Shown here in pieces: positions 16,913-30,191 of a stretch of 64,000 bases of DNA. The stretch is taken from NCBI RefSeq assembly GCF_019175365.1, contig NZ_CP059572.1, positions 8,556,001-8,620,000 of the forward strand, given 5' to 3'. The notes below the pieces were generated by a model. The model was not told where the DNA came from, searched no databases, and saw only the letters and a list, made by a program, of their open reading frames with translations. Origin of the DNA: Actinomadura graeca (GTDB lineage Bacteria > Actinomycetota > Actinomycetes > Streptosporangiales > Streptosporangiaceae). Each line of letters starts with the position of its first letter. Positions within the stretch are counted from its first letter, which is position 1. The position numbers and the translations under genes are program-made.

Positions 16913-18451
16913 ATGCCGAAGAGCGAAGAGCGCGACAATAGCGGCCCCGAGGAGACGGCCGCGACTCCGGAAGCCGCGGTCTCCGGAGGCGCGAAGCCGC
17001 AGGACGGCGTGCCCCCGCCCCCGGGGGACGACGCGGGCGCGCAGGACCCGCGGGGCGGCGGCCCGACGCCGGAACGTCCCGCCGAGACGGCCGTCGCGCG
17101 GGTGGGCGACCCGGTCGCGGTGTGGCCGTGCGCCAACTGCGGACGGCCCGTCCCGCAGCCGGTGGGGGCGGTGCGCTCCGTCCGCTACTGCCAGGACAAC
17201 GACGGCGCCTGCGCCCGCGAGGCCCGCGACCGCCGCGACCGCGGCCGCGACGCGCCGGGGCTGACCGGCCAGGTCGCCTCCACCTGGGAGATGGTCGAGC
17301 GCCTGGAGAAGGCCGCCGACCTGCTCGCCGACTCGCTGACCTCCGAGCTGAGCGTCGCCGGCGTCGAGCGCCGCGTCGCCGAGGTGCGCGCCGAGGCCGC
17401 CCGCGAGCTCGCCATCGCGCAGAGCGAGCGCGACTCCTCCCAGCGCAAGGCCGAGGAGGCGTGGCACGAGGCGACCTCCGCCCGCGGCCGCGCCGAGAGC
17501 GCCGAGAAGGAGGCCGCGCACGCCCGCGAGGAGGCCAAGCTCGCCACCTCCAAGCGCGACGCCGCCCAGCAGGCGTGGGAGGAGGCCCACCAGGTCGCGC
17601 AGCAGTCGATGACCGCCAAGCTCGCCGCCGAGAGCGAGCGCGACCGCATCGCCGCGCGCGAGACCGAGCTGCTCGCCGCCCTGGAGGCGGCGCGCGCCGA
17701 ACTCGTCACCCTGCACGCCAGACTCTCCGAGACCGAGGGGGCCGTCGAGTCCCAGCGCGTCGAGGCGGCCGTCGCCAAGCAGGGCGCCGAGGACCTGCGC
17801 AACGCCATGCGCGACACCGAGGCGCAGCGGCAGCGGGCGATGCAGGCCGCCAGCAAGGCCGAGGCCGAGCGCGCCACCGCCCTGCGGGCCCAGTCCGAGG
17901 CGGAGGCCGAGCTCGTGCGCGCCAACGCCCGGGCCGAGGAGGCGGTCAAGGAGCGTGACGCCGCCCAGGCCATGGCCCAGGCCGCCACCGCCGAGCGCGA
18001 GGAGCTCAACGCCAAGATCAGCGACCAGTCGGTGCAGCTCCGGCAGCTGTCCCAGTCGGTCGCCGAGCAGCAGGCCGCGCTGACCGCCCTCGCCGAGGAG
18101 CGCGACGCCGCCCGCGCCGAGGCCGACCGTGCCCGCCGCCAGGTGGACCAGTTCACGCACAACACGCTGTCGTCCAACATCCCGCCCGGCGGCCGGATGC
18201 CGGGCGGCGGCACCCCGGCGCCCTCCGCGGGCCTCTCGCACAACGCGGCACCCCCGCCGCCCCCCGGGATCCCGCCGGGCCCGCCCCCGATCGGCCCCGG
18301 CCCGTCCGCGGCCCCCCGCCCGCAGAACGCGCCGGTCCCGCTCAGCGCGCCGCCCCCGAGCCACCCGGCCCAGGGCACCGTCCCGCCGGGCCGCGGGCAG
18401 TCGTCACTGAACGGCGCCGACCGGGAGGACCCCCTCTTCACCGGCCCCTGA
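16913..18451 (+). CDS. Long coiled-coil protein with N-terminal zinc-ribbon and proline-rich tail
   Basis: Function not recognised; 512 aa. Order: an acidic/Pro-rich head (1-65), a small Cys motif CANCGRPVP...RYCQDNDGAC (two CxxC-like pairs, possible zinc ribbon, ~68-95), about 300 residues of Ala/Glu/Arg heptad repeats (coiled coil, ~110-415), then a Pro/Gly-rich tail (~420-505). No signal peptide or membrane helix. TATGGT at 16900-16905 ends 7 nt before the ATG at 16913, so the mRNA may be leaderless; in-frame starts at 16895 and 16901 are alternatives. A scaffold or cytoskeletal role is a guess. Confidence 0.75.
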   Translation: MPKSEERDNSGPEETAATPEAAVSGGAKPQDGVPPPPGDDAGAQDPRGGGPTPERPAETAVARVGDPVAVWPCANCGRPVPQPVGAVRSVRYCQDNDGACAREARDRRDRGRDAPGLTGQVASTWEMVERLEKAADLLADSLTSELSVAGVERRVAEVRAEAARELAIAQSERDSSQRKAEEAWHEATSARGRAESAEKEAAHAREEAKLATSKRDAAQQAWEEAHQVAQQSMTAKLAAESERDRIAARETELLAALEAARAELVTLHARLSETEGAVESQRVEAAVAKQGAEDLRNAMRDTEAQRQRAMQAASKAEAERATALRAQSEAEAELVRANARAEEAVKERDAAQAMAQAATAEREELNAKISDQSVQLRQLSQSVAEQQAALTALAEERDAARAEADRARRQVDQFTHNTLSSNIPPGGRMPGGGTPAPSAGLSHNAAPPPPPGIPPGPPPIGPGPSAAPRPQNAPVPLSAPPPSHPAQGTVPPGRGQSSLNGADREDPLFTGP

Positions 18452-18460
18452 CGGCCCGGC

Positions 18461-18682
18461 TCACCCGAACTTGACGACCATGAGGAGCACCATCGCCGAC
18501 CCCGCGACGAGGAGCGCGGTGTGCGTGCGCTCCTTCGCGGCCGTCTGCCGCAGGCTGCTCACCCTTTTGCGGCCGAGCCGCACGTCGAACACCGCACGTC
18601 GTGCCCGTTCCCAGTGGATGCCCGTGTAGATCGCGAGCCCGGCCAGCCCGAGCAGCAGTAACCCGGTTCCGTATCCGCTCAT
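18461..18682 (-). CDS. Small two-helix membrane protein
   Basis: 73 aa, not recognised. Two hydrophobic helices (residues ~5-24, GLLLLGLAGLAIY, and ~54-71, ALLVAGSAMVLLMVV) flank a basic cytoplasmic loop. GGAGG 8 nt upstream supports the start. It is convergent with the coiled-coil gene, with only 9 bp between the stop codons. Confidence 0.6.
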   Translation of the reverse strand: MSGYGTGLLLLGLAGLAIYTGIHWERARRAVFDVRLGRKRVSSLRQTAAKERTHTALLVAGSAMVLLMVVKFG

Positions 18683-18842
18683 CTGTCCCGCCTCCGTGTT
18701 CGCGGAAGCTCACAGTGAACAGCGGACCGGCCCGGCCGGGCCGCGTCAAACGACACATTTCCAGAATCCATGCGGAACCGGACCACCACCGCGCGGTACC
18801 GATTCCCCGGTGAACGTGACCCCCTGGCACGTTCCCGCCGGA

Positions 18843-19535
18843 TCACCGCCCGAACGTCTCCGGATCGACCTCGATCCAGATCTGCTCCGCACGGCCGAGG
18901 AGCCGCCCGTCCGCCCCGTACAGCGCGGTGGCGGCGTGCATCTTGCGGTCCTCCCTGCTCCGCGCCAGCCCCATGACCACGCACCGCTCACCCGCCTGCG
19001 GCAGCCCGGTGACCTGCGCGGTCATGGTCCCGAGGACCGCGGGCCGGCCCGCCACGCCGAACGACCAGCCACCGGGGCAGTCCAGCGCCGCCCAGACCAC
19101 TTCGGGCTCCGGCACCTCCCGCGGCACCCAAGGCGAGGCCACGATCGCCTCCGCGACCGTCCCCGGCTCCAGCCGCAACCCGTCCCCGGTCTCCCGCTCG
19201 GGCCCGCACACGAAGCACCGCGGAAACGGATGCCTCTCCGCCGCCGCCCCGAACGCCGCCGCCGCCTCCTCCGCGACCTCGAACGGCACCGCCGCGACCG
19301 GCGGCACCACGATCGCCCCCGCCAGCGCCTCGGCGACCAGCACGTCACCGTCCCAGAGCCGCACCCCGTGGCCGCGCTCGTCCTCGACCGTGACCGTCAG
19401 CTCCACCTCCAGCGGCGGAGGCCGCCGCAGCGTCACCGTCACCGTGTCGGACGCCGCACGCCCGGCCAGCAACCCCGCGACGTACCCGCCGTTGCCCGAC
19501 CCGTCCGGCCCATGGAACCGCTTCTCAATGATCAC
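18843..19535 (-). CDS. Thioesterase-like (hotdog-fold) protein
   Basis: 230 aa. The N-terminal half fits a hotdog domain (NGGYVAGLLAGRA, VTLRRPPPLEVELTV), and the second half repeats the pattern (CPGGWSFG, VLGTMTAQVTGLPQAGERCVVMGLA). A single Cys-rich spot, CFVCGPERETGDGLRL, lies at the join near residue 108. Acyl-CoA thioesterase activity is inferred from fold only. The GTG at 19535 is chosen because GGGGGAA lies 6 nt upstream and an AT-rich promoter-like TATAGGAT is close behind. Confidence 0.65.
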   Translation of the reverse strand: MIIEKRFHGPDGSGNGGYVAGLLAGRAASDTVTVTLRRPPPLEVELTVTVEDERGHGVRLWDGDVLVAEALAGAIVVPPVAAVPFEVAEEAAAAFGAAAERHPFPRCFVCGPERETGDGLRLEPGTVAEAIVASPWVPREVPEPEVVWAALDCPGGWSFGVAGRPAVLGTMTAQVTGLPQAGERCVVMGLARSREDRKMHAATALYGADGRLLGRAEQIWIEVDPETFGR

Positions 19536-19844
19536 TCTGCGTTCCCCCGTGCTCAAACCGCCCGAAAACCGGACCGATCCTATATTTATTGGGGAGGCGA
19601 GCCCCCATATCCCCCGGCTGCGCGGCACGGGTCTCCTCCACTGCGCTCGCTGCACTCGCTGCGTTGCGGGGACGCGGCGCGCCGGGGATACCCGCTCCGC
19701 TCGCTTGCGCTCGCTCCGCGTGCCTCCCCGAAACCGGTGGCCGGGCTTCGAACCGGTGGTTGAGGCTCAACCTGCCGGGGTCGGGGTTTCGAGGCACGTT
19801 TGCCTGGGGCGACCGCCAGACCCCCGGTGCGCTTCTTTGACCCT
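19536..19844. other. Intergenic stretch without a gene
   Basis: 309 bp between two minus-strand genes. The left end (19570-19600) has an AT-rich patch with TATAGGAT on the minus strand, the probable thioesterase promoter. The middle (19620-19710) is built of repeated GCTCGCTGC-like words (CTGCGCTCGCTGCACTCGCTGCG, split here as words of 9-10 bases) and reads as a decayed inverted-repeat element. No coding signal seen. Confidence 0.4.
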
Positions 19845-20360
19845 CTATACGGCGCGGGAAGGTTGGGGACGGCCTGGGCGGGTGGTGAAGAAGACGGAGA
19901 GGGAGCCCTTGAGGCGGGCGCGGACGGTCTCCTCGTCCACGGGGCCGTCGTCGGGGACGGGGGTGAGGTCCAGCGCGCGGGCGATCAGCAGGTCGACGTT
20001 GCGGTCGGCGACCAGGACCGAGCAGGTGTCGCAGGCGTACCAGGGGTAGAGCATGTTGAGGACGGCGACGGCGGTGTCGTCGTCGGACAGGTGCGTCGTG
20101 TCGAGCTCGACCTCGAACATGTCGGTGTCCTCGGGGTCGAGCGTCGGGTAGTAGAGCCAGCTCGGGCCCGCCGAGGCGCAGAAGTCGCACGCCTGGTCCT
20201 GGGCGGCGGGCGCGCCGACCGCGAGCTCCAGCTCGTGGTCCCATGGCTCCACCCGCCGGTTGTGGCGGTAGCCCACGCCGTCCAGCGAACCCTCACGGTT
20301 GTGCGTGACGTCGTGCACCTCGCCGCCGCAGCGGGCGCACATGAAGCCGATGTCCTCCAT
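19845..20360 (-). CDS. Hypothetical zinc-ribbon-like protein
   Basis: 171 aa, not recognised. Three CxxC pairs: CARC near 8, CDFC near 58, and CDTC near 110, suggesting one or two structural zinc sites. The rest is acidic, with a conserved-looking WYACDTCSVLVADRNVDLL. GGGGAGGGAC just before the ATG is a strong ribosome-binding site. It lies divergent from the ABC ATPase gene, 124 bp away. Confidence 0.65.
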   Translation of the reverse strand: MEDIGFMCARCGGEVHDVTHNREGSLDGVGYRHNRRVEPWDHELELAVGAPAAQDQACDFCASAGPSWLYYPTLDPEDTDMFEVELDTTHLSDDDTAVAVLNMLYPWYACDTCSVLVADRNVDLLIARALDLTPVPDDGPVDEETVRARLKGSLSVFFTTRPGRPQPSRAV

Positions 20361-20484
20361 GTCCCTCCCCTGATCGCTGAGGCACCGGAACTCACATTAT
20401 CCGGCCGGGGCGCTCCGTCGTACCGGGTGCCGCGAACCTTCGGGTACCTTGAAGATCTTTCTTCGATCCCTGGTGGGAGGTCCC

Positions 20485-21285
20485 GTGTCTCGCTACGGCG
20501 CGTCCGTCGTGCTCAACGCCGACAAGATCGATCTGGTCCGTGAGCGGCGCCTCCTCCTCGACGCGGTGACGATGACCGTGCTCCGCGGCGAGCACTGGGC
20601 GCTGATCGGCCCGAACGGCGCGGGGAAGAGCACGCTGCTGGGCATCCTCGGGGCCTACACGCATCCGACGCGCGGCATGGCGGAGATCCTCGGGCGCCGC
20701 CTCGGCAGGGTGGACGTGCAGGAGCTGCGGAGGCTGATCGGCCAGGTGAACCCGCGGCATCCGCTGGAGTCGGCGCGGACGGTCCGGGAGATCGTGCTGA
20801 CCGGCGTGACGGGCACCATCGAGCTGGTCCCGCGCTGGACCCCCTCGGAGGACGAGCTTCGCCGCGCCGACGAGCTGATCGGGCTGATGGGCCTGACCCG
20901 CCGCACGGATGCGCGCTGGCCGAACCTGTCGCAGGGGGAGCGGGGCCGGGCCCTGATCGCCCGGGCGCTCATGCCCGACCCGCCGCTGCTGCTGCTCGAC
21001 GAACCCGCCACCGGCCTGGACGTCGCGGCGCGGGAGCGGCTGCTGGCCTCGATCGACCAGCTGCGGGCGGACCGTCCCGACCTGACGACGGTGCTGGTCA
21101 CCCACCACCTGGAGGAGCTGCCCACCAGCACCAGCCACGCGCTGCTGCTGCGGGACGGGCAGGTCCTCGCGTCGGGCCCGGCCGGGGAGGTCCTCACCAC
21201 CGAGCTGGTCAGCGCCTGCTTCGACCACCCCATCACGATCACCCGGAACAACGGACGCTGGGCCGCGACCGCCGGACCGGCCTGA
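20485..21285 (+). CDS. ABC transporter ATP-binding protein (ModF/YlmA type), orphan
   Basis: Single ABC ATPase of 266 aa. Walker A GPNGAGKST near 45, Q-loop IGQVNPRHP, signature LSQGE near 152, Walker B LLLLDEPATGLD near 171, and H-loop VTHHLEE near 208. There is no permease or binding protein next to it, as usual for the ModF/YlmA group, whose role is unsettled. GGGAGG four bases before the GTG at 20485 fixes the start; a TTG at 20449 is less likely. Confidence 0.85.
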   Translation: MSRYGASVVLNADKIDLVRERRLLLDAVTMTVLRGEHWALIGPNGAGKSTLLGILGAYTHPTRGMAEILGRRLGRVDVQELRRLIGQVNPRHPLESARTVREIVLTGVTGTIELVPRWTPSEDELRRADELIGLMGLTRRTDARWPNLSQGERGRALIARALMPDPPLLLLDEPATGLDVAARERLLASIDQLRADRPDLTTVLVTHHLEELPTSTSHALLLRDGQVLASGPAGEVLTTELVSACFDHPITITRNNGRWAATAGPA

Positions 21286-21330
21286 GCGACGGGGGTCCCC
21301 AGCCGTCACGCGAGCGCGCTACCAGCCCGG

Positions 21331-21444
21331 GTGAGGCAAAGCCGGAGGCGAGCCTCACGCGGTCTGATCGCGGAGCGATGTCGCGCTCGCCCAAGCACGG
21401 TCAAGGGGCGAGCCGCCAGGCGAGCCCCTTGGGCCGGGATTGAG
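21331..21444. repeat. Pair of hairpins with a shared loop; copy 1 of a dispersed element
   Basis: Hairpin 1: GTGAGGC (21331-21337) / GCCTCAC (21352-21358). Hairpin 2: CAAGGGGC (21402-21409) / GCCCCTTG (21424-21431). Both loops are 14 nt and alike (AAAGCCGGAGGCGA, GAGCCGCCAGGCGA). The part from 21366 matches 53117-53197 at about 80 percent. It lies between convergent genes and may also act as terminator. Confidence 0.6.
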
Positions 21445-22791
21445 TCAAACACAGCCCGCTTGGACTTTGTGGAGGGACAGGTGGGCCAAGACGGACTGGT
21501 TGGCCTCCCAGCCGTCGGGGAACTTGACGGGCACGCCGAGGTGGACGGGTTCCGTGGAGGGGTGGGCGTCGAGCAGCTCGGGGATGCCCGCGCGGGCCAC
21601 GACGACGCATGCGTGGCGGTGGCGTGATGTCAGGACGCACAGCCGTCCCGACTCCAGATGGAACGCGGTGGCGTCGCGGCGGCCGGAGAGCGGGTGAAGG
21701 ACGACCGTGACGTCGTACTCGCGGCCCTGGAGGCGGTTGGCGGTGTCCACGGTGATGCCCTCGCCGTGCGGGCCGAGCGCCGCGCGGATCGCGGCGACCT
21801 GGTCGCGGTGGGCGGCGCCGATCGCGACGCGGTCCGCGCCGACGGGGTGGGAGCCGAGCTCCGAGTGGGCGACCGGGCCGCGCTGGAGCAGCCGGACGGC
21901 GAGCGCCGCGGTGGCCTGGACCGCTTCGGCGTCGGTGCGGAGCGTGTGGCGGGCGGGCAGCTCGTACAGCGCCCAGCCGCTCGCGGCTGCCTCCTCCAGC
22001 GCCAGGTCGTAGGTGGTGCCCATCCCTCGGGCGCCGTACTCCAGGCGCCGTTCGCCCTCCCGCGTCCCGGCGCGGAATCCGGTGAAGGGGTAGAAGGCGT
22101 CCGACACCACCGGCGCGGCGGAGGCGGGCAGCCGCCACGACACGGGCAGGCGGTGGACGGGCAGGTCCGGGTTGTGGGCCAGCAGGACGGACACGGCGCT
22201 GCGCATCGGGTCCCAGGACAGCCCGGCCCAGCGTTCCACCTCGACGGTGGAGAACGGGTCGAGCTGCCCGGGATCACCGACGAACAGCGCCCGCTCGAAC
22301 CGTCCGGCGATGCGCAGGAGCATGTCCGAGCGCATCTGGTACGCCTCGTCCACGATCGCCCACGGCCACGAGCCGGACGTGAGCGTCGCCCACTTCGCGG
22401 CGGTCGCGATGACGACCGTGTGCTCGGCGAGCTCGTCCGCCTTCTGCGCGACCCGGACCGCCGGGTGGCCGAGGACGCGGTCGGACGGGACGTACCCCGA
22501 GGCCGACAGGCGGCCGAGCGACACGTCCGGGTGCTTGCCCGCGATGCGCTCGATGAGGTCGTCGACCTGCTCGTTCGTCTGCGCGACGATCATCAGCCGC
22601 CGGCCGGCGGCGGCCAGGTGCGCGGCGGCGCGGACGACCAGCGTCGACTTGCCGGCGCCCGGCGGGGAGTCGACGACCACCCCGCGGTGCGCGCCGTCCA
22701 GGTCGGCGAGGACGGCGTCGACGACCCGCCCGGCCGCCTCGGACGGGCCGGTGTCCTCCCCCGTCGGCGCGACCAGGTGGCGTTCGGTCAT
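21445..22791 (-). CDS. SF1B (Dna2/Upf1-like) helicase, last gene of the nuclease-helicase operon
   Basis: 448-aa P-loop helicase. Motif I SPPGAGKST (42-50), II VDEAYQ (147-152), III GDPGQLDP (172-179), IV SWR (218-220), V TVDTANRLQGREYD (347-360), VI around LTSRHRH (387-393). The GDxxQLxP plus VDTxxxxQGxE combination is typical of the Dna2/Upf1 branch. It is short for that branch: the usual N-terminal stalk and 1B barrel are absent and may be supplied by the preceding gene product. The ATG at 22791 overlaps that gene's stop by 4 nt. A DNA repair, replication or defence role is inferred. Confidence 0.8.
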   Translation of the reverse strand: MTERHLVAPTGEDTGPSEAAGRVVDAVLADLDGAHRGVVVDSPPGAGKSTLVVRAAAHLAAAGRRLMIVAQTNEQVDDLIERIAGKHPDVSLGRLSASGYVPSDRVLGHPAVRVAQKADELAEHTVVIATAAKWATLTSGSWPWAIVDEAYQMRSDMLLRIAGRFERALFVGDPGQLDPFSTVEVERWAGLSWDPMRSAVSVLLAHNPDLPVHRLPVSWRLPASAAPVVSDAFYPFTGFRAGTREGERRLEYGARGMGTTYDLALEEAAASGWALYELPARHTLRTDAEAVQATAALAVRLLQRGPVAHSELGSHPVGADRVAIGAAHRDQVAAIRAALGPHGEGITVDTANRLQGREYDVTVVLHPLSGRRDATAFHLESGRLCVLTSRHRHACVVVARAGIPELLDAHPSTEPVHLGVPVKFPDGWEANQSVLAHLSLHKVQAGCV

Positions 22792-24260
22792 GACCAGTCC
22801 TCTTCGGCGTCCTCGTCGGTCGGCACGTACTCGGCGGGCGGCCCGCCGTGCGTCCACGGCGTGTCCTCGCGGTCGGGGAACTTCGCCGTGCCCCACGAGC
22901 CGTCCGTGAGGGAGGTGAAGCACACCCGCTCGCCCACGGCGGGGACGGTTCCGGGCTCGGCGGTGAGCTTGCGGCCCATCCCGCCGGTCAGCTCCACCAG
23001 CACCGTGCCGCCGCGCGCCTCCACGATCCTGCCTTTGAGCGCCGGCCGCGCGGCGCTGCACACGGCCGTCCCCGCGTCCAGCCTGACCGGGTCCTCGGTG
23101 CGGACCCGCAGGTGCGGGCGCAGCTTGGGCCGCCTGCCCGTCTCGTCCAGGCGGTCAGGCTCGCATTCGGCGACCACGCCGCCGAACGCCTGGCCGGACA
23201 GCCGGTACTCGGCCATGACCAGCGGGTCGTCGAAGGCCCGCTGGGCGTCGTAGGCGTCCTGGGCGCGTTCGAGGTCGTGCAGCCTGCGCGCCGCCCGGAC
23301 GGGCGGGTCGCGGCGCGCCTGGGGATACGCCTCACCGAACGTCTGGTGGTAGTAGGTGAAGGCGTCCCGGTCGCGTTCCCAGCGGCCCGCGACGCTCGCG
23401 GCCTCGGGCAGCGCCCGCAGCAGCCCGACGGCCCGCCACATCAGCTCCCAGGTCGGCGCGAGCTGGGAGCGGACGGCGGCGCGCAGCCGCTCCTCGGCGC
23501 GCGGGTCGCGGCCGGACCGGTCGTAGGCGGCGATGGCCGGGGCGAGGACCTCGTTGTCGAACGTCGGGTCGGTGGCTGGCCCGGCAGGCGGGCAGGTGAC
23601 CGGGTCCTCGGCGCGCGCGGCGGCGGCCGGGCCGTCCAGGCCGTCGGGCGGGTCGATCCAGCCCAGCAGCGCGGCGAGGTTGCCGTCCTCCACCGAGCTC
23701 TGCCCGGTCGCCCAGTGCAGCCGCAGCAGCTCCGTCATGGCGTGGAGCAGCGACGAGCCCGGGTGGTCGTGCCGGTCGGCGAACCACGTCAGCCACCGGC
23801 CGAGGACCGGTACCGCCGGGTCGACGGCGTAGGGCCCTTCCGTGCTGCGGAACCGTGTCGACCGCCCGAGCAGCCGCAGGAACCCGACGCCGCCCCGGTT
23901 CGGGACGAGCAGCTGCGGCGCGTCGCCGTACCGGATTCGCTCCTCGCCCTCCTTGCCCGGCGGCAGCTCCTCGACGGCGCCGCGGCTCGTCTCGATGTGG
24001 TTCAGGACGAGCTTGGCGAGCGAGGCGGCGAACGCGAACCGCAGGTCGCGGTTGCGCGGCTGCGGGACGATCAGGAGCGTCGGTTCCCGGGGCGTGTCAC
24101 CGAGCATGACGGCGAGCGGCGCCGCCGCCTCACCGGCCAGCTTCACCGGGACGAGGACGAGCGGCGTCTCCGGCACGTGGCAGTGCCGCACCGTCGCGAG
24201 CGGCTGCGCGATCCCGGTGGACATCGCCTGGACCTGCGCCAGGGCGGTCAGCGCGCTCAT
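22788..24260 (-). CDS. Operon partner with C-terminal beta-barrel-like module
   Basis: 490 aa, not recognised. The N-terminal ~200 residues are mixed alpha/beta (LVPVKLAGEAAAPLAVMLGD, split across a strand pair), the middle is helical (TWELMWRAVGLLRALPEA), and the last ~130 look like an OB/SH3-type barrel: LSGQAFGGVVAE, RPHLRVRTEDPV, ALKGRIVEARGGTVLVELT, PAVGERVCFTSL. Such a barrel sits inside the first RecA domain of Upf1/Dna2 helicases, so this may be the missing accessory part of the downstream helicase. It overlaps the helicase by 4 nt and starts 16 bp after the nuclease gene. Confidence 0.7.
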   Translation of the reverse strand: MSALTALAQVQAMSTGIAQPLATVRHCHVPETPLVLVPVKLAGEAAAPLAVMLGDTPREPTLLIVPQPRNRDLRFAFAASLAKLVLNHIETSRGAVEELPPGKEGEERIRYGDAPQLLVPNRGGVGFLRLLGRSTRFRSTEGPYAVDPAVPVLGRWLTWFADRHDHPGSSLLHAMTELLRLHWATGQSSVEDGNLAALLGWIDPPDGLDGPAAAARAEDPVTCPPAGPATDPTFDNEVLAPAIAAYDRSGRDPRAEERLRAAVRSQLAPTWELMWRAVGLLRALPEAASVAGRWERDRDAFTYYHQTFGEAYPQARRDPPVRAARRLHDLERAQDAYDAQRAFDDPLVMAEYRLSGQAFGGVVAECEPDRLDETGRRPKLRPHLRVRTEDPVRLDAGTAVCSAARPALKGRIVEARGGTVLVELTGGMGRKLTAEPGTVPAVGERVCFTSLTDGSWGTAKFPDREDTPWTHGGPPAEYVPTDEDAEEDWS

Positions 24261-24276
24261 AGGGCGGTGGCGGCGG

Positions 24277-25383
24277 TCACGCGGCGCCGCCCCGGGCGGC
24301 GGCCAGCGCCTCGTCGCGGAGCCGGGCCGCCGTGCGCAGCTGCGCGGCGGTCTCGGCCAGGTCGTCGGACGGGCTGAGCGAGCCGTCCGCGAGCGCCAGC
24401 GCGGTGCCGGCCGTGTCGATGCCGCCGAGGTCGTCGCGGACGCCGCGGCCGAGCGTCCCCGTCGCCCCGCACGCCCGCGCCTCGTCCCGGCAGAAGAACG
24501 CCATCTCGCAGCCCGCGATGCACTCGGGCGCGTACCGGGCCTCGACCGCGCGCACCGAGTCGGCGAGCGCGTCGCCCGGCTCGAAGCACAGGTCCTCCGG
24601 GAGCGCCTCCAGGATCGTGTCGACGCGGGTGAGCCGCGCGAGCTGCCGTTCGAGGACGGCGAGCTGCGGCCGGACGTCCAGCGGCGTCGCCGTGGGCCGG
24701 TTGGAGAAGTTCTCCGGGCAGACGAGGAACACCTCGTGCGACACCCGCCCAGGGTCGTGGCCCAGCTCCGCCGCCAGCCGCCGCAGCGCCAGCACGTACA
24801 CCGCGGACTGCCGGGCGGCGGCCGCTACCTGCTCCGGCTCGGCCTGCCCGTCCACGACGGCGAACGACTTGACCTCGATGACGTGCAGCCGGCCCTCGAC
24901 CTGGAACGCGATGACGTCCGGTTCCAGGTAGGCGAGCCGCCCGCCGATCTCCAGCCGCAGCAGCGGATGGTCGAACAGCGTGCCCTCGCCGGTCTCCAGC
25001 GCGCGGGCGAGGAGCCGCCGGGTGCGGGCGTGCCGCAGTTCCCGGCCCTCGTTGCCGGCGACGACCTCCAGGTCGTCGTAGGCGGCCTCCGCGACGGCCA
25101 GGCCGAGCCGGTCGCGCAGCAGCGTCAGCAGCTCGGCGCATCCGTCGGCCTTCACCTGCGCCTCGAACGCGTTCCCGCGGGTGATCGCGAACTGCGACTG
25201 GCCGAACGGCGCGGGGAACCCCAGGTGCCGGGCCACCGCGTCCTTGTCGACACCCGCCGCGTCCATCACCCCGCGGCGGGCGCAGCCGGGGTTGGCGGTC
25301 AGCGCCGCGATCGTGCGGGCGTCGTGGTTGCGCGGGGGAGCGCCGCCGCGCAGCCGGTCCAGGTCCGGCGCGGTCTCGGTCAT
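24277..25383 (-). CDS. RecB/Cas4/Dna2-type PD-(D/E)XK nuclease with Fe-S cysteines
   Basis: 368 aa. Nuclease core: motif I around GNAFE (70-74), the metal-binding Asp in LEPD (153-156), IEVK with E170 and K172, and the RecB-type QxxxY as Q192-Y196. One N-terminal Cys (C34) and a C-terminal cluster C288-x3-C292-x5-C298-x6-C305 bracket the core, the arrangement of Fe-S nucleases such as AddB, Cas4 and Dna2. A cut of ssDNA or flap ends is inferred. The ATG at 25383 overlaps the previous gene by 4 nt, and the barrel protein follows at 16 bp. No cas genes are nearby. Confidence 0.8.
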   Translation of the reverse strand: MTETAPDLDRLRGGAPPRNHDARTIAALTANPGCARRGVMDAAGVDKDAVARHLGFPAPFGQSQFAITRGNAFEAQVKADGCAELLTLLRDRLGLAVAEAAYDDLEVVAGNEGRELRHARTRRLLARALETGEGTLFDHPLLRLEIGGRLAYLEPDVIAFQVEGRLHVIEVKSFAVVDGQAEPEQVAAAARQSAVYVLALRRLAAELGHDPGRVSHEVFLVCPENFSNRPTATPLDVRPQLAVLERQLARLTRVDTILEALPEDLCFEPGDALADSVRAVEARYAPECIAGCEMAFFCRDEARACGATGTLGRGVRDDLGGIDTAGTALALADGSLSPSDDLAETAAQLRTAARLRDEALAAARGGAA

Positions 25384-26285
25384 CGGTCTCGTTCTCCAGG
25401 TGTGGCACGCCGCCTGCCCGGCGTGCCGGATGCGTGCAGGGCCCGCAGCCGGCTGCCGAACAGCCGCTCCGCGTCGTCGAGCCGGATCCGGGCCCGTCCG
25501 GCGGCCTCCTCGCGCCGCCGCCGGTCGGGATCCCGGTGCACTTCCAGCTCCGCCCGGGCGGCCTCCGCCAGATCGGCCGGGTCGACTGTACCGACCGTAC
25601 CGGTGGCCGTACCGGGAATGTTGGACGCGAACCGCCACAGCAGCCGCTGCACGTCCGGGGACGGCGTTCCCCGTCCGGCGTGCTCGGCGAGGCGGATCGC
25701 GGAGGTGAGGAAGTCGGTGCGCGGGCTCAGCGGCCCGACGATCCGGTTCTCCAGCGGCCAGGTGCTCACCGTCAGCAGGCCGCGGGCGGGCGCGAGGAGG
25801 TCGGCGGTCAGCGCCGCGCACAGGTAGAAGGGCCGCGCGTACGGCGCGGTGCGGAAGGAGCGCTCCTCGTCGCGGCGCAGGCTCGTCAGCCGGGCGCCCG
25901 CGATCTCGCCGGGGAAGAACGCCGCGTACACCGATCCGACCAGCTTCGGCGCGGACGGCGCACCGAGCAGCGTCAGCGCCTGGTGGACCTGCTCCCGGAC
26001 GGGCAGCAGCCCTCGTTCCGGCCGTTCCCCGCGCCCGTCCCGCCGCGCGCCCGTGCCCGCGCCGTCGGCATCGGAGCCGGAGTCGGGGTCGGCGGTTCCG
26101 GCGGGGGCCTCCGCGTCACCGAGCACGGCCTCGTCCCACTGCCGTTCGGCCAGGCGGAGGTCGGCGCGCAGTTCCCGGGCGCCCCGGCGGTCGCCGGTCG
26201 CCATCGCCCGGCGGACGGCGGCGCGCAGCTCGGCGATGCGCGCCTCCAGCGCGTCGGGGGTGGGGACGCCGGGGGACCGGGGCAT
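25380..26285 (-). CDS. First gene of the nuclease-helicase operon, winged-helix-like
   Basis: 301 aa, not recognised. A short coiled coil (residues 10-55, LEARIAELRAAVRRA), a disordered Gly/Asp-rich linker (65-100), then a globular region that reads like a winged helix: PVREQVHQALTLLGAPSAPK, VGSVYAAFF, LTSLRRDEERSF. A helical Arg-rich C-terminus follows. It could be the operon's own regulator or the DNA-recognition subunit. The ATG at 26285 follows three TTCCAG repeats, and its 3' end overlaps the nuclease gene by 4 nt. Confidence 0.7.
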   Translation of the reverse strand: MPRSPGVPTPDALEARIAELRAAVRRAMATGDRRGARELRADLRLAERQWDEAVLGDAEAPAGTADPDSGSDADGAGTGARRDGRGERPERGLLPVREQVHQALTLLGAPSAPKLVGSVYAAFFPGEIAGARLTSLRRDEERSFRTAPYARPFYLCAALTADLLAPARGLLTVSTWPLENRIVGPLSPRTDFLTSAIRLAEHAGRGTPSPDVQRLLWRFASNIPGTATGTVGTVDPADLAEAARAELEVHRDPDRRRREEAAGRARIRLDDAERLFGSRLRALHASGTPGRRRATPGERDR

Positions 26286-26305
26286 GCGCGTGACAGTACA
26301 GCAGC

Positions 26306-26331
26306 TTCCAGACAGTTCCAGCGTTTTCCAG
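26306..26331 (-). promoter_or_regulatory. Three direct repeats of TTCCAG with 10-bp period
   Basis: TTCCAG occurs at 26306, 26316 and 26326, exactly one helical turn apart (CTGGAA in the sense of the operon), 20-46 bp before the start codon. The spacing fits cooperative binding on one DNA face. Confidence 0.6.
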
Positions 26332-26353
26332 TTACCCGGCGAGGCATCCGGAA

Positions 26354-26606
26354 TCAGCGCGGCTTGCGCCACACCACGCAGTAGCGCCACAAAGCGTGCC
26401 GCCGGAACGAGGCGCCGGGCAGCAGCCGCAGTGACTCGGCGCGGACCTCGCCCCAGGTCATCCCGGGCGCCCGCGTCGGCGGCGAGGCTCATGACGACCA
26501 GGCCCCCGCCCGGCCGGACGTTGCGGAGCACGACGCCGTGGTAGTGCGTGTCGTGGTTCCAGTACTCGCCGCCCGTCCGCTCGTCGGCCGCCTGGTCCTT
26601 GGTCAT
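26354..26606 (-). pseudogene. Remnant of a class I SAM-dependent methyltransferase
   Basis: The first ~40 codons from the ATG at 26606 read as a methyltransferase N-terminus (GGEYWNHDTHYHGVVL). In a shifted frame the end reads MTWGEVRAESLRLLPGASF then LWRYCVVWRKPR and a stop at 26354, the usual C-terminus of the same family. The central ~150 codons, including the SAM-binding motifs, are gone and the two ends are out of frame. A relic left by an internal deletion is the simplest reading. Confidence 0.65.
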
Positions 26607-26621
26607 CGTCGCCTGGCGGGG

Positions 26622-27023
26622 TCAGGGACGCGGATCGCGCCGCAGGGGATGTCCCTCCGGGACCTCGACGATAACGATCTTCACGCCGTCGGGGTCCTCG
26701 ATCCACATCTCGACGAGCCCCCACGGCTCCTCGCGCGGCCCCCGGGTGATCCGCGCGCCGGCCTCCGCGAGGCGGTCGTGCTCGGCCCGGACGTCCCTGA
26801 CCTGCAGCCAGATCATCGGGCAGGGGACGGCCGGGGCGCCGCCACCACCGGGGCCGTGCCCCGACACCTCCAGGAACCCCTGGCCGAGGAAGAACACGAC
26901 GCCGGGCGTGTCCGGCGGGCCGAACTCGCGGTACACCGCGAGCCCCAGCACGTCGCGGTAGAAGGCGCGGCTGCGCGCCGGGTCGGCCGGGCGGAGCAGG
27001 ATGCGGCTGCTCAGGACGTCCAT
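26622..27023 (-). CDS. VOC/glyoxalase-fold protein
   Basis: 133 aa, one vicinal-oxygen-chelate domain built of two beta-alpha-beta-beta-beta units: RILLRPADPARSRAFYRDVLG at the start and RDVRAEHDRLAEAGARI in the middle, ending EDPDGVKIVIVE. Possible metal ligands are a late Glu (VEMWIEDPDG) and an early strand residue. The family covers glyoxalases, dioxygenases and drug-binding proteins; no specific reaction can be assigned. It sits 52 bp from the dehydrogenase stop, possibly co-transcribed with it. Confidence 0.85.
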   Translation of the reverse strand: MDVLSSRILLRPADPARSRAFYRDVLGLAVYREFGPPDTPGVVFFLGQGFLEVSGHGPGGGGAPAVPCPMIWLQVRDVRAEHDRLAEAGARITRGPREEPWGLVEMWIEDPDGVKIVIVEVPEGHPLRRDPRP

Positions 27024-27075
27024 GGCCCCATCCTCGCCTCCCGGCCGCCACCGGAAGGCGCCGCCACGCCCCGGC

Positions 27076-27942
27076 TCAGCCGTCGAAACCGGCGTGGTAG
27101 GTGGCGGCCATGTCCTCGTCGCCGTGGCCCTGCTCCAGCGCGCGGCGGAACCGGTCGCCCGCGGCGTCGTTCATGTCGACGCGGACCCCGGCGGACGCGG
27201 CCGCCTCGTGGATCAGCCGGGTGTCCTTCTCGGCGTTGCGGAGGGCGAAGCTGGTCGTGTAGTCCCCGGCGAGGATCGCCTTCATCTTGGCCTGCAGGTA
27301 CGGGCTGTCCATCGGGCCGCCCGTGACGACCTCGCCGAACAGCGCGGGGTCCAGCCCGAGGCCCTTGGCGAGCCCGAGGGCCTCGGCGACGATCGAGGTC
27401 ATCGAGATGCCGAAGCCCACCGTGGCGAGCTTCAGCCGCGTGGCGGCGCCCGCGGCGCCGTCCGTGCCGAGCCACAGCGTCTTCTGGCCGACCGCGCCGA
27501 ACACCGGTTCCAGCCGGGCGCGGACCTCCTCCGGGCCGGCGGCGAGGATCACCAGCGTGCCCTGCTCCGCGGGCTGCCTGGTGCCCTGGACGGGCGCGTC
27601 GACGAACGTCAGGCCCCGCTCGGCGGCGAGGTCGGCGAGCGGCCCCAGCGCGGCGACGCCGACCGTGCTCATCTGCGCCCAGACCTGCCCGGGCCGCAGC
27701 GCGTCCGCCGCCTCGGCCAGCACCGACAGGACGGTCCCGCCGTCGCTCAGCATCGTGATGACGACCTCGGCGCCCTCGATCGCCTCGGCGGGCGTCCCGG
27801 CGACCGTGGCGCCGTCCGCGGCGAGCGGCTCGGCCCGCGACCGGGTGCGGTTCCAGACCCTCACCCGGTGCCCGTTCCGGAGCAGGTTGCGCGCCATCGC
27901 CGCGCCCATGATCCCGGTCCCCAGCAGCGCGACATCGCTCAT
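27076..27942 (-). CDS. Beta-hydroxyacid dehydrogenase family (3-hydroxyisobutyrate dehydrogenase-like)
   Basis: NAD(P)-dependent oxidoreductase of 288 aa. The N-terminal Rossmann motif is LGTGIMGAAMARNLL, with a basic WNRTRSR after strand 2 that points to NADP. The substrate loop is VDAPVQGTRQPAEQGTLVILAAG (here the usual GG-x-x-A-x-x-G motif is altered to QGTRQPAEQG), and the catalytic Lys sits in TRLKLATVGF. The altered loop suggests an imine reductase or glyoxylate/succinic semialdehyde reductase-like substrate and not hydroxyisobutyrate. Confidence 0.87.
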   Translation of the reverse strand: MSDVALLGTGIMGAAMARNLLRNGHRVRVWNRTRSRAEPLAADGATVAGTPAEAIEGAEVVITMLSDGGTVLSVLAEAADALRPGQVWAQMSTVGVAALGPLADLAAERGLTFVDAPVQGTRQPAEQGTLVILAAGPEEVRARLEPVFGAVGQKTLWLGTDGAAGAATRLKLATVGFGISMTSIVAEALGLAKGLGLDPALFGEVVTGGPMDSPYLQAKMKAILAGDYTTSFALRNAEKDTRLIHEAAASAGVRVDMNDAAGDRFRRALEQGHGDEDMAATYHAGFDG

Positions 27943-28097
27943 GATCGGATCCTCTTTCTCGACTGGACGTTACAGATCGGGGATGGTTCCGGGCGTACGC
28001 CGGGCCCGTCCCGCCCCTACCCCGGAACGGGCAGGGCTCGCAGGGTGGTGTCGACGACCGCGGCCAGACGGCGCCGGTCACATTGCGCCGGTCGCGT

Positions 28098-29147
28098 TCA
28101 GCCGAAGGCGGGGCTGTCCCCGGGCGCGTCCGCGAACGCGTCGGTGTAGGGCGCGGCGAACACCTCCAGGGTGCGGTCCAGCTGCGCCGACCACCACGCG
28201 ACCAGCGCGGCCGAGCCGCGCTCGCCCGCGCCCTCCTCCCCGAGGTAGCGGTGCCGCAGCGCGGCGACGTCGCACAGCCGCTCCCACCACTCCCGGTGGA
28301 CGGCCGCCTGGATCTGCCCGGCGTCCAGCGGGAACACCGCGCGGTGCCCTCGCACGAACGCCTGGACGCGGTCGAGGTCGAGACCCCGCTCGTCCTCGCA
28401 GGCGAACAGCCGCGCCGCCGCCCGGACCACCTCGCCCGCCACCGGCCCGGTGCGCAGCCCGTCCCAGCCGAGGACCGCGGTGACGTTGCCGGAACCGCCG
28501 TAGCGCAGGTTCTCCGCCTCGAACGCGCCGTGCAGGTGCCCGACCGTGCTGACCTCCATCTCCGGCGGCTGGTGGCCGGCGAACTCGGTGAGCAGGACGT
28601 GCCGCTCCCGCAGCCGCCGCCCGGTCAGCGCGTCGAAGTCGGTGCCCCCGCCGTCGCCGGGGACGGCCTCCAGCATCGCGCCGACCGCCTCGGCTGCGTC
28701 GGCGGCGCGCGGCGTCGGCACCAGCAGGCTCTGCTGCACCGGCGGTGTCAGCCGGTCCAGTTCGGCGTGCAGGCGTCCCAGCAGCCCGCCCAGCGCCTCG
28801 CACTGGCCGAACGTCAGCTCCAGCCCCCCGCGGACGCGGCCCGCGACCCACGGGTACAGCACGAAGACCCGCCCGGCCGCGGTGACGAGCGTTCTCCCGC
28901 TCCGGGTGGGCACGGGCGCGAGGACCGGCAGTCCCGCCGCGTCGAGCGCGGCGGTGACCGTGTGCTGGAACCGCAGGCGCCGCCGGTCGGCCTCCGCGTA
29001 CTCCTTCAGGAAGAACGAGCCCCGGGCGGTGTCGATCCGCCTCCACCGGCCTCCCGGCCCGGGGGACACGGCGTCCGGGGCGCCGATCTCCCAGCGACCC
29101 AGCAGCCGTGGCGGCGGCTCGGTGTCAGCACTCTGTGACGTCGGCAC
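28098..29147 (-). CDS. APH-family phosphotransferase-like protein, catalytic Asp missing
   Basis: 349 aa with the aminoglycoside-phosphotransferase/kinase-like fold. The ATP-site Lys (FFLKEY, ~K48), hinge (VFVLYPWVAG) and late Asp (GWDGLRTGP, ~D229) are present. The catalytic loop reads HGAFEAEN where the family has HGDxxxxN: the base Asp is Ala (~A208) while the His and Asn remain. It is thus a probable pseudokinase or an enzyme with altered chemistry. The GTG at 29147, with GAGG 7 nt upstream, is preferred to the GTG at 29198. No operon partner. Confidence 0.75.
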   Translation of the reverse strand: MPTSQSADTEPPPRLLGRWEIGAPDAVSPGPGGRWRRIDTARGSFFLKEYAEADRRRLRFQHTVTAALDAAGLPVLAPVPTRSGRTLVTAAGRVFVLYPWVAGRVRGGLELTFGQCEALGGLLGRLHAELDRLTPPVQQSLLVPTPRAADAAEAVGAMLEAVPGDGGGTDFDALTGRRLRERHVLLTEFAGHQPPEMEVSTVGHLHGAFEAENLRYGGSGNVTAVLGWDGLRTGPVAGEVVRAAARLFACEDERGLDLDRVQAFVRGHRAVFPLDAGQIQAAVHREWWERLCDVAALRHRYLGEEGAGERGSAALVAWWSAQLDRTLEVFAAPYTDAFADAPGDSPAFG

Positions 29148-29246
29148 CTCAGCACCTCGGCGGCGTCGGACGGACGGCGGTCGAACGGATGTTCCCACAC
29201 CGACGCTACACGGGCGGGCGCCCGCCGCGAAAGGGAACCGCGCGCC

Positions 29247-29648
29247 TCACGCGGGTTCGAGGACGACCACGGGGATCTCCCGGCCGGTCTTGCGCTGGTA
29301 GTCGTCGTAGGCGGGCCAGACGGCCGTCATCTTCTCCCAGTACGCGGGTTTCTCCTCGGGCGTGGCGTTCCGTGCCCTCGCGGTGAACTTCTCGCCCTTC
29401 ACCTGGACGTGCGCCGTCGGGTCCGCCTCAAGGTTGCGGTACCACGCCGGCGCCTCGTCGGCGCCGCCGTTGGACGCCACGACCAGGTAGGCGTCCCCCT
29501 CCCGCTGGTAGATCAGCGGCGTCGTGCGCCGTTTCCCGCTGCGGCGCCCGGTGGTGGTGAGCAGCAGGGTGACGGTGCCCTGCCATTCGTGCCCCTCCTC
29601 GCCGTCCGTCTCCTGATAGCGCTCGACGTGCTCCTTGCCGTACAGCAT
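29247..29648 (-). CDS. Deazaflavin (F420)-dependent nitroreductase family protein
   Basis: 133 aa split-barrel protein of the Ddn family of actinomycetes, which uses F420H2 to reduce nitro compounds, quinones or enones. Typical pattern: TLLLTTTGRRSGKRRTTPLIY, then YLVVASNGGADEAPAWYRNLEADP, and a Tyr/Trp-rich C-terminus (KMTAVWPAYDDYQRKTGREI). It faces away from the PaaI-type gene, 84 bp apart. Confidence 0.9.
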   Translation of the reverse strand: MLYGKEHVERYQETDGEEGHEWQGTVTLLLTTTGRRSGKRRTTPLIYQREGDAYLVVASNGGADEAPAWYRNLEADPTAHVQVKGEKFTARARNATPEEKPAYWEKMTAVWPAYDDYQRKTGREIPVVVLEPA

Positions 29649-29732
29649 GGTTCCTCCTGATCGTGATCCCGCGTCACGATGACCTTCCCCGGTGAGGGCC
29701 TGTCAATGCCCGGCGATCATTACGCTGTGCGG

Positions 29733-30191
29733 GTGAGCGACGCGGCGGAGGTGGCGCGCCGATGCGCCGAGACGATGTACGCGCGGGACCGGGTGGCGCA
29801 GGAACTGCAGATGCGGATCGCCGACATCGGGCCGGGCCGGGCCCGGCTGCGGATGACGGTCGGCGAGGCGATGGTGAACGGCTTCGGCATCGCCCACGGC
29901 GGCTACCTGTTCCTGCTGGCCGACTCGGCGTTCGCCTACGCCTGCAACACCCATGGCGCAGTGACGGTCGCCGCGTCCGCCGACGTGGTGTTCGTCGCGC
30001 CGGCGCGCAGCGGGGACGTGCTGGAGGCGACCGCGGTCGAGCGCACCCGCTACGGCCGCAGCGGCGTCTACGACGTGACGGTCCGCCGCGTCCCGGACGG
30101 GCAGGTCATCGCGGAGTTCCGCGGCGGCAGCCGCTCTCGTGGCGAACGCGTCCTGGACGGCGATACCGAGACCGGCACCGGCACCGGCTAG
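29733..30191 (+). CDS. PaaI-type hotdog thioesterase
   Basis: 152 aa, single hotdog domain hydrolysing an aryl- or hydroxyphenylacetyl-CoA-like thioester. The signature is NGFGIAHGGYLFLLADSAFAYACN, with the helix Asp acting as catalytic base, followed by ASADVVFVAPARSGDVLEA. No other phenylacetate genes are nearby. TACGCT at 29721-29726 ends 6 nt before the GTG at 29733, so a leaderless message is likely; in-frame upstream starts at 29679 and 29706 lie in or before the promoter. Confidence 0.87.
   Translation: MSDAAEVARRCAETMYARDRVAQELQMRIADIGPGRARLRMTVGEAMVNGFGIAHGGYLFLLADSAFAYACNTHGAVTVAASADVVFVAPARSGDVLEATAVERTRYGRSGVYDVTVRRVPDGQVIAEFRGGSRSRGERVLDGDTETGTGTG

Follow-up and report, generated by a model that had tools for sequence, protein, structure and literature searches.

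Two described enzymes come closest to the system reported here. Bad of Geobacillus stearothermophilus, in the sections of its description on which we draw, is one 1245-amino-acid chain that runs from an iron-sulfur (Fe-S) RecB-type nuclease through a large unexplained middle to a superfamily 1B (SF1B) helicase (PMC7430649). Eukaryotic DNA2, likewise a single chain, has the same parts in the same order. The stretch of DNA from the soil actinomycete Actinomadura graeca that we analysed (hereafter the window, 64,000 nucleotides, G000:C1:8556001-8620000; all coordinates are positions within it) carries a four-gene operon, g1 to g4, in which g2, g3 and g4 follow this order as three separate genes. 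We read these genes as encoding a split Dna2/Bad-type DNA-repair helicase-nuclease in three chains, borrowed by mobile elements, with g1 as its regulator, and we give this reading, which is drawn from sequence comparison, a probability of about 0.7.

All four genes lie on the minus strand, and each open reading frame (ORF) runs from ATG to TGA with zero internal stops. The layout that had been proposed at the outset, with 4-nt overlaps and one 16-bp gap, agrees with the coordinates: g1/g2 and g3/g4 overlap by 4 nt each, and g2 and g3 are 16 bp apart. The features are as follows.

26305..26331, minus strand: direct repeat CTGGAAAACGCTGGAACTGTCTGGAAG upstream of g1, ending 19 bp before the g1 start (conserved in 13 aligned Actinomadura-group sequences).
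25380..26285, minus strand: g1, 301 amino acids, with a coiled N terminus and, by pattern reading, a winged-helix-like segment; optional, proposed regulator (alignment of 18; promoter-repeat association).
24277..25383, minus strand: g2, 368-amino-acid putative RecB-type Fe-S nuclease (alignments, Pfam and profile comparisons, residue counts).
25282..25284, minus strand: codon for C34, which opens the set of four conserved cysteines in g2 (position counted from the g2 start).
24868..24918, minus strand: g2 catalytic D156 ... E170-x-K172 (residue counts; in register with Cas4).
24796..24810, minus strand: g2 motif Q192-xxx-Y196 (residue counts, Cas4 comparison).
24490..24522, minus strand: g2 C288-x3-C292-x5-C298, the remaining proposed Fe-S ligands (residue counts).
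22788..24260, minus strand: g3, 490-amino-acid orphan protein, which may be the N-terminal half of the helicase (alignments, natural fusions).
22866..23198, minus strand: beta-rich-looking C-terminal stretch of g3, about residues 355-465, a putative "barrel" (alignment pattern).
21445..22791, minus strand: g4, 448-amino-acid SF1B helicase core (domain, profile and motif evidence).
22645..22665, minus strand: g4 Walker A, PPGAGKS, residues 43-49 (translation, residue counts).

The initial annotation had called the operon uncharacterised, and the databases that we searched name no function for it. Only g4 is named by single-sequence scans (helicase domains AAA_11, AAA_30 and AAA_12); g1, g2 and g3 gave zero matches as single sequences in Pfam, NCBIfam and PADLOC at expectation values (E) up to 1. 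Searches of PDB sequences with these three proteins returned no meaningful match, the profile matches being 30 residues of designed repeat proteins, and an Rfam scan of 18000-30000 gave zero matches. With 8000 candidates scored, at least 3772 relatives of g3 and at least 3479 of g2 reach E <= 0.001. None of the best 120 of these 3772 or of the best 120 of these 3479 has a Pfam domain, and the names among the best 120 listed are "hypothetical", "uncharacterized" or, for some g2 relatives in UniRef, "Secreted protein". No account of this operon was found in the literature searched, which does not prove that none has been published. Separately, a protein 88% identical to g2 of the window (P0132) is labelled Mycobacterium tuberculosis, probably from a mislabelled or contaminated assembly.

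The nuclease assignment of g2 comes from its conserved residues and from profile comparisons. Over 238 aligned relatives, which are not independent, C288, C292, C298 and Y196 are kept in every sequence, and C34 is invariant in all 233 that have a letter at that site. The motif residues D156 (233/238), E170 (227/238), K172 (234/238) and Q192 (230/238) are all present in the window's protein, so that the earlier description of g2 as a RecB/Cas4-type nuclease with QxxxY and Fe-S-like cysteines holds up. Even when relatives as distant as 26-28% identity are included, as in the broadest alignment, 16 positions stay invariant, among them the four cysteines and Y196. The cysteine spacing is CX3CX5C in the window and CX2CX5C, as in the collected Cas4 proteins, in the family member L095. 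Among Pfam families, PDDEXK_1 has matches to the largest number of g2 members (11 of 40, best E 0.0048, and 3 of 18 in a second set), followed by a viral capsid model with three members and three helix-turn-helix (HTH)/MarR models with two each. When the g2 profile was compared with 12 Cas4 proteins, the match (E 0.0044) was the best of 15 comparisons, the next having 0.054, with D, ExK and QxxxY in register. A PD-(D/E)XK fold is likely for g2 because of these PDDEXK_1 and Cas4 matches with the motifs aligned. The model TIGR03491 and the Cas4 model PF01930 had no match in the window's own genome.

The helicase is better recognised. The residues checked in Walker A, DEAxQ, GDxxQ, WRxP, QGxE and motif VI of g4 show little or no variation over 143 relatives, the least conserved of them being P222 (137/143). 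Against PDB sequences the g4 family profile matches DNA2 best (1.1e-15), ahead of SMUBP-2 (1.2e-14), a 5'-3' RNA helicase-like protein (7.5e-10) and UPF1 (1.4e-8). The partial matches of g4 in Pfam, NCBIfam and PADLOC, including PLuB_AAA (8.2e-14), lie far below their cut-offs, as does the IGHMBP2 family TIGR00376 (42.9 bits vs a cut-off of 348.9); those in PADLOC cover parts of the helicase or the P-loop region, the best being MkoA (2.7e-12, residues 38-125). In one g4 relative (P0254) an intein/homing-endonuclease-like insert (PF14890, PF14528) interrupts the P-loop region.

It had been noted that g4 lacks N-terminal modules of its own, and natural fusions argue that the middle protein supplies them. 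With g2, g3 and g4 joined as one query, 14 proteins were reported among 8000 candidates scored. Seven (P0243-P0248 and P0250, 930-936 amino acids) consist of a near-full g3 followed by a near-full g4; four are named "AAA family ATPase" (NCBI; Streptomyces or Streptoverticillium), P0250 is a "hypothetical protein" and two are nameless. The others are apparently partial or frame-disturbed, P0241 being a partial g2 joined to g3, and none of the 14 is an intact chain of g2, g3 and g4. Since g3 and g4 are naturally fused in seven proteins, the most fitting reading of g3 is as the N-terminal half that the helicase lacks, and the SMUBP-2 match of the fused g3+g4 profile starts inside the tail of g3. 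We found for g3 no consistent Pfam family match and no 1B model among the matches; its C-terminal "barrel" is an alignment pattern. TIGR00376 helicases, sought for a comparison of barrels, were above the cut-off in 0 of 149 genomes and, being fragmentary, were not used. Pairs of a g3-like and a g4-like gene also lie on actinobacterial plasmids of Rhodococcus, Euzebya, Mycobacterium and Xylanimonas (L100, L101, L102, L105), in stretches where no g2-family nuclease gene was matched; the Euzebya protein matches g3 at about 3e-6, and in three of the four plasmids the pair is near a VWA-like protein and an AAA-type ATPase.

Gene order supports the view that these proteins belong together. We surveyed 122 loci, several genomes being entered twice, and found g2 followed by g3 in 104 and g3 by g4 in 98, with a median overlap of 4 nt, and g1 by g2 in 76; 13 loci had no g3 within reach. 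This order is more than chance, because it recurs in most of the loci across Actinomycetota. Hence, the proposal that a separate Fe-S nuclease and SF1B helicase travel together in the Dna2/Bad order is upheld; as for the conservation of all four genes in order, the survey found it for g2, g3 and g4 but showed g1 to be optional. On Micromonospora musae contig NZ_RAZT01000010.1 (L144 and L171) there are two g4 genes about 37 kb apart, and g1-g2-g3 are near just one of them.

The operon is a regular component of some lineages. All 23 other genomes of the window's genus have g3, which is in none of 16 more distant sampled genomes. At wider ranks, g2 occurs in 36 of 101 genomes of the order and in 13 of 296 of the phylum, and g3 in 70 of 394 of the class; two of the genomes in the phylum sample, outside the class, carry g2, g3 and g4 (L098, L099). 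In genus g48, taken to be Streptomyces, g2 is present in 98 of 101 genomes. The same-genus loci L021, L022, L023 and L025 have at least five flanking genes in common with the window, and the sister-genus locus L024 has two. Thus, the window copy is a core operon of its genus and not an island, since g3 is present in all 23 other same-genus genomes and the four same-genus loci looked at have flanking genes in common with it. No functional hint came from the remaining genes conserved in the flanks, which include MFS, GNAT, TetR and kinase genes.

A DNA-damage-type promoter precedes the operon in genus g48. We considered 90 core copies there, the full-length core matches minus a few that an insert or the end of a contig interrupts. 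The motif TTGTCRGTG stands exactly upstream of 70 of them (53/60 in a first set, 17/30 in the lower-scoring rest), and an exact match occurs in 0.3% of shuffled sequence. If as many as two mismatches are allowed and the -10 block is kept, 86 of the 90 have it in place, the exceptions being L281, L387, L391 and L407. The distance from the motif to a start-like codon is 30 nt in 58 of 59 copies of the first set and in 23 of 30 of the rest. In five g48 genomes a longer form of the motif has 28, 34, 33, 20 and 24 sites, vs 2, 0, 0, 0 and 0 for a reversed control; the window's own genome has 6 vs 1. We read 20 of the 28 sites in G137, scanning the ORFs behind them in one library each. Nine precede repair or damage-response genes, namely RecA, Ung, DNA polymerase IV, UvrA, RuvA, a DnaN-like clamp, a YoaA/DinG-like helicase, an Lhr-like helicase and an AlkZ-like glycosylase; seven precede genes of another kind (sigma factor, SUKH, two glyoxalase-like, FHA, DtxR-like, pentapeptide), and four precede ORFs that gave no match. 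The core copies in g48 carry the same motif as recA and so fall into the RecA-NDp-type class, as judged against consensus letters that we presume to be those of RecA-NDp. A PafBC pattern with TA required at -10 gave zero matches, the motif being seen with other -10 letters, and no exact SOS box (GAACN4GTTC) was present in 103 upstream stretches. One-mismatch versions of this box numbered 31 in these stretches vs 11 in one shuffled set. PMC5087735 places RecA-NDp promoters before genes of the damage response in Actinomycetales and before a UV-inducible gene of Streptomyces coelicolor; PMC8223512 and PMC6789036 bear further on such promoters.

These results suggest how the machine could work. 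The products of g2, g3 and g4 would form one DNA helicase-nuclease, in which g3 and g4 together supply the whole SF1B motor, running 5' to 3', and g2, whose fold an Fe-S cluster would hold, cuts the single strand fed to it by the motor. Flaps, stalled-fork strands or double-strand-break ends could in this way be trimmed or resected. In Actinomadura and in g48, where the promoter is of the damage type in the latter, the operon would act as a chromosomal DNA-repair system, with g1 as a DNA-binding protein that may control it through the upstream 10-bp repeats. The mobile copies described below may instead destroy foreign DNA together with their own Mre11-Rad50 pair and sometimes with Wadjet.

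Several observations pull in the other direction. By itself the match between g2 and Cas4 is weak (probability 7.8%), and models of MarR and talin reach E 0.0043 with single or few g2 members. The catalytic E170 is absent from 11 of the 238 g2 relatives, so cutting is not always needed; its loss occurred more than once on the g2 tree. Most exceptions to the gene order are loci of the Micromonosporaceae type, where g4 often stands apart from g2-g3, and no g4 was found near g2-g3 in L086 and L092. Used alone, g4 of the window matches SMUBP-2 (3.5e-6) above DNA2 (0.0083), as does the fused g3+g4 profile (1.5e-10 vs 1.1e-6). The TTGTCRGTG-N8-(-10) motif does not occur at the window's operon, the damage-type promoter being seen in genus g48 only. 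Finally, according to PMC9380542, a first search gave reason to think that Streptomyces venezuelae has not conserved the PafBC motif of mycobacteria.

The role of g1 allows for two answers. Just upstream of it lies a CTGGAA direct repeat with a 10-11-bp period, common to the 13 Actinomadura-group sequences, and the window's full repeat, searched with up to 3 mismatches, occurs once in its own genome, before g1. We counted the pattern CTGG-N6-7-(C/G)TGG within 350 bp upstream in loci that are related by descent and not independent events, using six-frame ORFs to find g1 and omitting 20 loci without a g2 start and one with a short upstream stretch. It is present in 77 of 93 loci with g1 vs 1 of 27 without, and the stricter TGGAA-N4-6-TGGAA in 50 of 93 vs 0 of 27; the background rates per 400 bp are 0.065 and 0.004, and in three of the 27 (L157, L158, L183) g1 is cut by the end of the stretch. 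Because the presence of g1 goes with the upstream repeat, g1 is probably the operon's own regulator. The initial annotation had counted it as part of the machine, which is hard to maintain for a gene that is absent from the g48 core copies and several other loci. Still, g1 may be a structural part that brings the machine onto DNA, a reading that would be compatible with a split Dna2/Bad-type enzyme and has perhaps secondary weight: 38 of the 76 g1>g2 junctions are 4-nt overlaps, and the protein has a winged-helix-like pattern. This winged helix is a pattern reading, no consistent family match having been found for g1, and the optional nature of the gene and its tie to the repeat make the subunit doubtful.

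The initial annotation had also suggested an anti-phage complex. This does not fit the window copy, because it is a core operon of its genus, but it is plausible that a defence role, if there is one anywhere, belongs to the mobile copies. We examined 22 g1-bearing copies outside the core lineages (g48 second copies, family f48, Pseudonocardiaceae, G399 and two Streptomyces plasmids), a set that takes in the full-length second copies among the matches listed, apart from the mirror copy of G791, and copies from further searches, a marginal match in G909 being omitted. In 18 of them SbcD, and SbcC where the stretch reaches, directly adjoins the operon, in divergent orientation to g1 in 15 and downstream of g4 in 3 (L181, L182, L263); the matches are in pieces or in part in L104, L251, L262 and L264, and SbcCD does not adjoin in L090, L093, L253 and L254. 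The linked SbcD is a separate paralogue, since all 13 tested genomes hold a more distant SbcD elsewhere (in G399 as weak pieces). L097/L258, L103, L104 and L250 continue with Wadjet Jet genes, and L262 and L263 show weaker matches of the JetC type. In single-contig genomes of g48 the distance from a linked copy to a contig end is 6-24 kb (G831, G434, both ends of G791), and a further copy sits 13 kb inside the end of a linear plasmid; the copy of G860 (f48) is internal. The linkage is found at three places on the g2 tree, one of them a long branch, and may have arisen once. None of the 18 linked copies has lost D156, E170, K172 or any of the cysteines, and the four unlinked ones form one clade with E170 to L and K172 to R.

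Such copies could mean that the operon is primarily an anti-phage or anti-plasmid defence, of which the core copies are domesticated forms. The dedicated SbcCD, the Jet genes beside some copies and the location on plasmids or no more than 25 kb from the end of a chromosome would all suit it. We consider it unlikely, though, given that the operon is near-universal in the sampled genomes of two genera, with common flanks in the window's genus and a damage-type promoter in g48, that g1-g3 have no PADLOC match, and that no g3 was found in phage records and just one marginal g4 match in viral contigs.

The paralogues of g2 without E170 (L030, L036, L039, L040, L090, L093, L137, L146, L253, L254, L266) retain all four cysteines; some also have Lys changed to Arg, and none is SbcCD-linked. 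A few kb from the operon copy with such a nuclease in L030 is a second, larger SF1-type helicase ORF of about 1087 amino acids (L030:12687-15947).

An RNA helicase of the Upf1/SMUBP-2 kind formed by g3-g4, with g2 as an unrelated neighbouring nuclease, would agree with the top rank of SMUBP-2 in the g4-alone and fused-profile searches, with the matches to UPF1 and other RNA helicases and with the nuclease-less pairs on plasmids, but is very improbable in view of the DNA2 match of the broad g4 profile, the adjacency of g2 and g3, the repair-type promoter class in g48 and the SbcCD linkage.

If the split Dna2/Bad-type reading is right, several thousand proteins now without a function would gain one, and a helicase-nuclease, probably regulated by DNA damage, would be added to the repair set of major antibiotic producers. 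Tentatively, and with somewhat less than even odds, we propose that this is a bacterial counterpart of MRN-Dna2 resection. The chromosomal split Dna2 would be a damage-response resection or flap enzyme, which mobile elements pair with a Mre11-Rad50 paralogue and Wadjet; Wadjet could open circular invaders and the Mre11-Rad50/Dna2 module could destroy the linear ends. The link to a dedicated SbcCD and Wadjet would then mean that bacteria, too, keep a Dna2-like enzyme next to Mre11-Rad50, in parallel with eukaryotic resection.

The comparison with known systems shows likeness and difference in each case. PADLOC proteins of anti-phage systems include no match to g1-g3, which gives no ground for membership among them. 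Cas4 has the same order of Fe-S nuclease motifs as g2, but is about 200 amino acids long and matches weakly by profile. Wadjet JetABCD and SbcCD are neighbours of the mobile copies but different proteins, not seen beside the window's operon. Archaeal HerA-NurA, in the parts of its literature on which we draw, is likewise a motor and a nuclease working with Mre11-Rad50. HerA and NurA belong to other protein families than g2-g4, and the window copy, in contrast, has no adjoining SbcCD. SMUBP-2 and UPF1 have an SF1B core like that of g4, but, unlike it, no nuclease partner gene. With DNA2 and Bad, the operon has in common a four-cysteine RecB-type nuclease with D, ExK and QxxxY and an SF1B core; nuclease and helicase are not in one chain, and partly for this reason we do not file g2-g4 as a member of that group. 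In human DNA2 the distance from the catalytic Asp to the Walker Lys is about 377 amino acids (residues 277 and 654), which leaves no room for the N-terminal 300 amino acids of g3. Bad spans 665 amino acids from D150 to K815, vs about 750 from g2 D156 to g4 K48 over g2, g3 and g4, if the Asp residues correspond, and its middle domain is likened to g3 by length only (sections of PMC7430649). The same sections describe Bad as rare and sporadic, beside a DNA methyltransferase in Geobacilli, whereas the g1-g4 system is core in two genera and has no methyltransferase. Bad is the closest single-chain analogue of g2-g4, and its unexplained middle domain would become testable here as a separate protein.

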